Source: Sphingopyxis indica
GTDB lineage: Bacteria; Pseudomonadota; Alphaproteobacteria; Sphingomonadales; Sphingomonadaceae
Assembly: GCF_900188185.1 (NCBI RefSeq)
Contig: NZ_FZPA01000002.1
Span: 62,001-126,000, forward strand
Reading direction: 5' to 3'
Length of the DNA: 64,000 nt
Each line of letters opens with the position of its first letter. Position 1 is the first letter of the stretch. This document shows, one piece after another, positions 2,265-62,520 of this stretch. Below the pieces are notes generated by a model. The model was given only the letters and a program-made list of their open reading frames with translations. It was not told the origin of the DNA and did not search any database. Position numbers and translations under genes: made by a program.

Positions 2265-2527
2265 ATACCATATCCCGGTGATCCCGACCGATGAGGATTG
2301 GTGGTCCCGTTTGCTGGCGAGGAGCGGCGGCAGCGGCGATGTGGTTCATCGTCGCGACGCCGCGACGGCGTCCAGCGGGCGGGACCACCAACCCGAAGGG
2401 CCGTTTCTGGTGGCCCTCGGACCGCGTCGCCTTCTGGCCCCGATGAACCACATCGCCGCTTCGAAGCCTCCTTGCCGAGAACCACCAGAAACGGTCCTCA
2501 TCGGTCGGGATCACCGGGATATGGTAT
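2265..2527. repeat. 263-bp palindromic (MITE-like) element with 33-bp perfect terminal inverted repeats
   Basis: The outer arms 2265-2297 and 2495-2527 are exact reverse complements over 33 bp (arm begins ATACCATATCCCGGTG). Inside are nested inverted repeats. A 19-bp pair GCGGCGATGTGGTTCATCG lies at 2333-2351 with its complement at 2441-2459. A pair CCGTTTCTGGTGG lies near 2401 with its complement near 2481. The whole unit can fold as one long hairpin, and both strands give a similar spurious translation. No transposase is encoded and no clear target duplication is visible. It fills the gap between two divergent genes. A non-autonomous mobile element is the simplest reading; a large structured RNA or regulatory palindrome is the alternative. 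Confidence 0.8.
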
Positions 2528-4615: not shown

Positions 4616-4702
4616 GATGCTTCAAATGGCGCCCTGCGCCAAAGGTTGCAACCGGCGCGGGCGCAAAGGCCCGCGGCTTCGATCTTAGTCCTCACGGATC
4701 GA

Positions 4703-4800
4703 GGTTTGTGTGCTCCCGCGAAGGCGGGAGCCCATCTCCCGCCGGTGCCATCTTGAATCGGCAGGAGATGGGTCCCCGCCTTCGCGGGGACACACGAACC
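4703..4800. repeat. REP/BIME-like palindrome, about 98 bp
   Basis: The left arm 4703-4739 and right arm 4764-4800 are near-complementary over 37 bp, with only a few mismatches. Each arm contains its own CCCGCGAAGGCGGG palindrome next to CCCATCTCC. A 24-bp spacer separates the arms. It lies between the start of the DUF445 gene and the end of the RND permease gene, where it could act as a transcript-end structure. The core GCGAAGGCGGG is a commonly dispersed type in sphingomonads (general knowledge, not checked here). Confidence 0.75.
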
Positions 4801-4812
4801 TTTGCAAGCGCC

Positions 4813-41711: not shown

Positions 41712-41822
41712 CTTCCGCCGCCCCGAGCGAAGACGAGGGGCTAGGCCGAGCGAAGTCGAGGTCCGGTGCGGGTTCTCGCTTCGCTCGAACGGCCCCCTCG
41801 TCTTCGCTCGGAGCGGCGGAAG
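41712..41822. repeat. Palindromic REP-like element between kdpD and the kdp operon
   Basis: Arms 41712-41740 and 41793-41822 are complementary apart from one or two bases; each contains GAGCGAAGACGAGG and a GCCGCC end. A second inner pair, CCGAGCGAAGTCGAG with CTCGCTTCGCTCG, fills the loop. GAGCGAAGTCGAG-type repeats are dispersed in sphingomonads (general knowledge). It lies in the 344-bp gap between kdpD and the first microORF. Confidence 0.7.
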
Positions 41823-61963: not shown

Positions 61964-62068
61964 ACGGGATTTGCGAGGCCATGGGCCTGTTCGCGAGCGG
62001 CGGCTATAGGCAGCGTGCCGCGCCGTGTCCAGCGTCTTTTCGGACCAATTTCATGCCCCTCAATCCTG

Positions 62069-62332
62069 GGGTCAGGACCCATTAATTGCACGTTCGAGGT
62101 TTGAAGCGATTTTGCTCAGGGCGAGGAGAAAAGGCGCAGGAATATGTCGATATTTCCAGACTTTTCGACGAAGCCCTGGGCAAAATCGGTCAAATCGCGA
62201 AGCGACGCCGAAATGGCCTCGATCTCGCCTCCGCGCGGCCTTGCGGGTAGCGATGCTACCCGCTGCACCCGCCCGAACCCGATATCTTCGCCATTTCGAC
62301 GCCTCGAACGCGCAATTAATGGGTCCTGACCC
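62069..62332. repeat. 264-bp MITE-like element with 31-bp terminal inverted repeats
   Basis: Left arm 62069-62099 and right arm 62302-62332 match as inverted repeats at 30 of 31 positions, starting GGGTCAGGACCCATTAATTG. The interior has the hairpin GCGGGTAGC-GAT-GCTACCCGC near 62249-62269. GGGTCAGGACCC-type ends also flank REP-associated or IS200-like elements elsewhere (general knowledge). No transposase is inside. The right end overlaps the last base of the yacG stop codon. Confidence 0.78.
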
Positions 62333-62520
62333 TAGTCGTAGCGGTCGGTCTCCATCGTGCCGTCGGGCGCCTGTTCGGCGGGAACGCGATAGTCTTCGTC
62401 GAACCAGCGATTGAGGTCCCGGTCGCGGCAACCGCGGCTGCAAAAGGGTTTATAGGCCTCGTCGCGCGGCTTGCCGCACAGTGGGCATTTGCGCGGTTTG
62501 GTGCGCGATTCACTGGGCAT
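62332..62520 (-). CDS. yacG: DNA gyrase inhibitor / zinc-binding protein YacG
   Basis: 62 residues from the ATG at 62520. Zinc knuckle CPLCGKP...FCSRGCRDRDLNRWFDEDYRVP, the full Cys-x2-Cys ... Cys-x3-Cys set of YacG, which binds GyrB in E. coli. It overlaps the end of the upstream RNase gene by 11 bp. The TAG stop ends with the first base of the adjacent inverted repeat, so the element lies directly against the gene. Confidence 0.92.
   Translation of the reverse strand: MPSESRTKPRKCPLCGKPRDEAYKPFCSRGCRDRDLNRWFDEDYRVPAEQAPDGTMETDRYD

Follow-up and report, generated by a model that had tools for sequence, protein, structure and literature searches.

A branched palindrome between divergent genes of Sphingopyxis indica is very probably a non-autonomous mobile element with IS630-type ends

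The nearest known pair of a small element without genes and a larger insertion sequence that may move it is RUP of Streptococcus pneumoniae with IS630-Spn1. RUP is short, gene-less and dispersed, its terminal inverted repeats resemble those of the IS630 family, and movement in trans has been proposed for it (PMC2229807, PMC3049150); it is 107 bp long, with 9-bp repeats, a TA target and ~108 copies (PMC2229807, PMC3049150). ISHsp2 from Halomonas sp. ZM3, also of the IS630 family, encodes its transposase across two frames, with a poly-A frameshift site linking them, and duplicates TTAA (PMC3606827). Among Alphaproteobacteria, MITEPye1 of Paracoccus yeei is a low-copy MITE with a long stem-loop and IS-like terminal repeats that has been linked to IS1182 (PMC11578231). 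The Correia/NEMIS elements of Neisseria are MITEs whose terminal repeats can fold when transcribed beside genes, and processing by RNase III has been proposed for them (PMC2229807). REPs are described as palindromes of 20–40 bp (PMC3733652).

Here we analysed a large palindrome in a 64,000-nucleotide stretch of the S. indica genome (hereafter the window), which we consider with high confidence to be a non-autonomous MITE whose ends are recognised by an alphaproteobacterial IS630-family DDE transposase. Based on empty-site comparison, the mobile unit is the 261 bp from TACC to GGTA, flanked on each side by a duplicated TNA triplet. Its features in the window, with the evidence for each in brackets, are as follows.

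2266–2526, no strand: MITE copy, 261 bp, TACC...GGTA (empty sites in relatives and other copies)
2263–2265, no strand: left target-site duplication, TAA (ancestral site CGCAATAAGG in relatives)
2527–2529, no strand: right target-site duplication, TGA, differing from TAA at a single position (empty sites, duplication survey)
2265–2297, + strand: left arm of the outer stem, 33-bp terminal inverted repeat (exact reverse complement)
2495–2527, + strand: right arm of the outer stem, 33-bp terminal inverted repeat (exact reverse complement)
2298–2391, + strand: inner hairpin arm A (fold and covariation)
2336–2351, + strand: conserved tip motif of arm A, GCGATGTGGTTCATCG (near-invariant in 18 copies)
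2392–2400, + strand: junction mini-hairpin CCC-GAA-GGG between arms A and B (fold)
2401–2494, + strand: inner hairpin arm B, a relative of arm A in inverse orientation (fold)
2441–2456, − strand: tip motif of arm B, GCGATGTGGTTCATCG inverted (motif location)

A preliminary description of this DNA had reported perfect 33-bp arms, at least two inner inverted pairs and a position between divergent start codons, all of which we could reproduce. The outer arms are exact reverse complements, and pairing stops outward of them; the inner pairs measure 24 nt (88%) and 23 nt (83%), and arms of 109 nt are 74% complementary. The next-longest perfect inverted repeat in the window measured 21 bp (spans within 600 bp), and the longest in Markov-simulated windows did not exceed 17 bp (n = 10). 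The same description held that the palindrome has no open frame of its own; frames of ~80 aa do run across it mechanically, although none shows any sign of coding. On the minus strand, the neighbouring gene is pepN (aminopeptidase N; match to TIGR02414), with its ATG at 2227. The divergent plus-strand gene starts with an ATG at 2538 and its product matched no Pfam family at 0.001, so that its name depends on our own reading of the protein sequence, which resembles that of an NAD-dependent epimerase. Between 2150 and 2650, we found neither a sigma-70 promoter nor an intrinsic terminator.

The window holds other inverted repeats. Downstream of an AcrB-like efflux gene, a repeat at 4702–4801 with 43-nt arms (86%) and GTGTCCCCGCGAAGGCGGGGA-type sequence looks like an intergenic palindromic repeat. 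Near a tRNA gene, a 34-nt inverted repeat (94%, 21 bp perfect; CTGGGGTCAGGACCCATTAATTGCACGTTCGAGG) bounds 270 bp at 62066–62335, possibly a second small mobile element. At 41712–41822, CTTCGCTCG motifs occur in a 44-nt inverted repeat (86%) that has a 23-nt spacer.

The S. indica genome carries five dispersed copies of the element, 263–266 bp long when counted from ATACC to GGTAT inclusive and 73–94% identical, at unrelated sites with different flanks (C25:64265, the window copy; C23:34204; C15:201208; C19:195331; and C25:211852). Clear copies were present in three of the 80 Sphingopyxis genomes, including six in Sphingopyxis panaciterrulae, which are nearly identical and each at a different site, and two altered copies in one further relative. 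Across the order, nine of 396 sampled genomes matched, spread over three genera, and an end-pattern scan of ~85,000 species genomes recovered full copies in Novosphingobium, Blastomonas and Sphingomonas. Partial, decayed copies with 72–78% identity were found on Sinorhizobium megaplasmids (L068–L071); they have no right end, have similar surroundings in four strains and represent an old insertion in an order different from that of the Sphingomonadales copies. No MITE was found in the phage and viral collections, where the lone match (L117) was dismissed because it is A+T-rich and has no right end. A separate repeat of ~85 bp (TCGTCATTGCGAGCGGCGAAGCC...CGCTCGCAATGACG), 86–94% identical and present in many copies in most Sphingopyxis genomes, adjoins one of the host MITE copies on its right (L005; C25, ~212120–212210).

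When joined, the flanks of the window copy match one uninterrupted stretch in each of 65 other Sphingopyxis genomes. In the 29 genomes where the exact junction could be aligned, the ancestral sequence is CGCAATA-AGG, which identifies the insertion as TACC...GGTA at TAA, with TAA now on the left and TGA on the right. Empty-site comparison covered the window copy and those at C19:195331 and C25:211852. Both of the latter also have empty sites in relatives, located at the stop codons of upstream genes (TGA and TAA or variants), and there the target duplication restores the stop codon. Identical TNA triplets flank 26 of 39 elements (15/26 MITEs and 11/13 ISs), a count that none of 5,000 shuffles of the right flanks reached (mean 10.6, maximum 22); the triplet is preceded by C in 26/39 and followed by G in 19/39. 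The imperfect duplication of the window copy (TAA/TGA) is like that of a third of the elements. The existence of TGA/TGA and TCA/TCA cases led us to reject a canonical TA duplication, and the correlation between left and right flanks led us to reject the absence of any duplication.

Insertion sequences of 1164–1171 bp that share the MITE termini occur in Sphingobium, Croceicoccus, Azospirillum, Roseomonas and others. Their transposase spans two reading frames, which most of these ISs join at a stretch of six or seven A; it contains Pfam DDE_3 (1.6e-28) together with HTH families, and is assigned to the IS630 family by NCBIfam NF033545 (5.5e-47; 160.6 bits compared to a cut-off of 100). These ISs duplicate TNA, including TGA and TCA, instead of the TA expected for IS630, so that their membership of the family rests on the transposase. 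Over 31 bp, the two ends of the MITE match one and the same IS end, which lies at the 3' end of the transposase gene; the match to the opposite IS end extends over only 17 bp. This suggests that the MITE originated as two inverted copies of this one end enclosing a pair of hairpin arms. For the inner arms themselves, no source was found within the ISs examined.

To move, the MITE very probably needs the transposase of such a larger IS630-type transposon, supplied in trans: judging from termini and target sites, this enzyme would cut at TACC/GGTA and join the element into TNA, often within CTNAG. No such transposase turned up in the host genome or in either of the two other Sphingopyxis that carry the MITE; two Sphingopyxis that lack the MITE encode close relatives of it. 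Among 11 MITE-bearing genomes examined, two contain a homologue, one intact and one with a stop codon. The intact homologue (90%) sits inside a complete IS, and its genome shares a MITE site with a Blastomonas aquatica locus (L116); in Blastomonas, MITE and transposase are both present. Since the host genome has no helper transposase, the host copies, including that in the window, would be stranded and currently immobile.

Taken with the shared ends and the TNA duplications, the copies and empty sites bear out the proposal of a MITE in the preliminary description. It had suggested searching for dispersed copies with variable flanks and for empty sites in relatives, and both were found: copies at unrelated places, and clean uninterrupted sites for the window copy (65 genomes) and two others. 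The single copy conserved with its flanking genes that it named as the sign of a fixed regulatory element is contradicted by the five host copies and the empty sites. Its suggestion that the element is specific to this lineage does not hold, as several alphaproteobacterial genera carry it.

As RNA, the palindrome folds with −194.5 kcal/mol (z = −15.3 relative to dinucleotide shuffles), and the fold is similarly extreme as DNA (z = −14.7). The lowest-energy structure is a Y formed by the outer stem and arms A and B, and one long hairpin in which the two halves pair comes close in stability (−178 versus −189 kcal/mol) because the arms are inverted relatives of each other. Every copy folds as an outer stem with two hairpin arms. 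In a consensus structure of 18 copies, 97.7% of cells were paired and 37 of 99 pairs had two-sided changes; neither value was reached in 500 shuffles and both were lost on slides of 1–3 columns, although the aligned copies are kin and these shuffle counts are not probabilities. The outer stem of the five host copies is Watson-Crick in all 160 cells, though 11 of its 32 pairs vary. We read this as DNA-level correction between the arms combined with recent transposition, in which copying from one arm to the other would be the main force keeping the stem perfect; selection on structure is possible. It is rather doubtful, though worth naming, that the inner arms with their near-invariant tip motif are a selected device, acting as folded single-stranded DNA or as RNA to aid transposition or control neighbouring genes, which would account for the conservation of the branched fold from genus to genus.

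The same data bear on a different explanation, that the palindrome is a functional structured RNA or regulatory leader of the lineage, repeated by chance, with its Y-fold selected as RNA. The strong two-sided covariation extends to the inner arms as well as the outer stem, arm A has conserved positions of G-U type (columns 47–48), and the tip motif barely varies, all of which such an RNA would account for. However, presence is patchy, every copy has different flanking genes, target duplications flank the element, and 65 genomes lack it at the same site. Outer-stem cells elsewhere that are not Watson-Crick comprise 9 G-T, 5 A-C and 1 T-C (9 compared to 6 others), with no clear G-T bias or marked G-U preference, and Rfam yielded no match to the palindrome at the gathering score, returning only two tRNAs in the window. 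We therefore regard a structured RNA as very unlikely.

Natural variants of the MITE include a 158-bp single-arm form, a 226-bp form and bare 55-bp outer stems at three places in Novosphingobium (L087, L096 and L107). One of the bare stems (L107) has exact TCA duplications, so that the 55-bp hairpin may itself be mobile. In one S. panaciterrulae copy (L073), arm A has an inverted orientation with respect to arm B, as though one hairpin arm had flipped. Deletions and flips of this kind are expected of palindromes in replication.

A decayed derivative of an IS with an internal deletion, a dead relic multiplied by genome duplication, would also have IS-like ends in a genome without transposase. 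Yet the inner arms are not IS sequence, the copies lie at unrelated sites, each with its own target duplications and flanks, and near-identical copies occupy separate sites in S. panaciterrulae, making a relic highly improbable. A REP/BIME-type palindrome moved by a RAYT (a Y1 tyrosine transposase) instead of a DDE enzyme is hardly credible, for although the element is palindromic, intergenic, multi-copy and GC-rich, it is 261 bp long and of low copy number, at odds with a 20–40 bp palindrome without target duplication, and has TNA duplications and ends common to DDE insertion sequences. Points that count against a MITE served by an IS630-type helper are the imperfect duplication in the window, the transposase in only two of 11 MITE-bearing genomes, TNA in place of the usual TA, and the inner arms without a source in the ISs examined.

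Before the insertion, ~46 bp separated the start codon of pepN from that of the epimerase-like gene. The element pushed these divergent genes apart, so the leader or promoter of the plus-strand gene was probably altered, and expression of the neighbouring genes is likely to be influenced. By direct reading, 8 bp separate the duplication from the plus-strand ATG, leaving GAGG as a possible ribosome site. More broadly, these results define a MITE family and its probable helper IS across Alphaproteobacteria, in a series of three sizes: the IS of ~1.17 kb, the Y-shaped element of 261–266 bp and the bare 55-bp hairpin. A TNA target permits landing in TAA or TGA stop codons with their restoration, allowing easy spread without gene breakage, and an outer stem that stays nearly perfect despite divergence between copies is a natural test case for self-correction of palindromes as opposed to selection on RNA.

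This kind of element is already known, and the particular branched family appears to be undescribed: no description of it was found in the open-licence literature. It departs from the known kind in its branched, covarying body, its TNA duplications, its origin from one IS end and its 55-bp mini forms. Like RUP, the Sphingopyxis MITE is gene-less and dispersed, with IS630-type terminal repeats and proposed movement in trans; unlike RUP, it is 261–266 bp long with ~32-bp repeats, a two-armed Y-fold, TNA duplications and 1–6 copies per genome. Correia/NEMIS elements are likewise folding MITEs with terminal repeats next to genes, but belong to another taxon and have TA ends, and RNase III processing is a proposal made for the Neisseria elements. 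MITEPye1 shares an alphaproteobacterial host, low copy number, a long stem-loop and IS-like terminal repeats, and is set apart by its described helper, IS1182 and not IS630. Finally, ISHsp2 resembles the helper IS, by description, in its IS630 family, its poly-A frameshifted transposase and a duplication longer than TA; its duplication is TTAA compared to TNA here, and it shows that the IS630 family tolerates duplication lengths other than that of TA.
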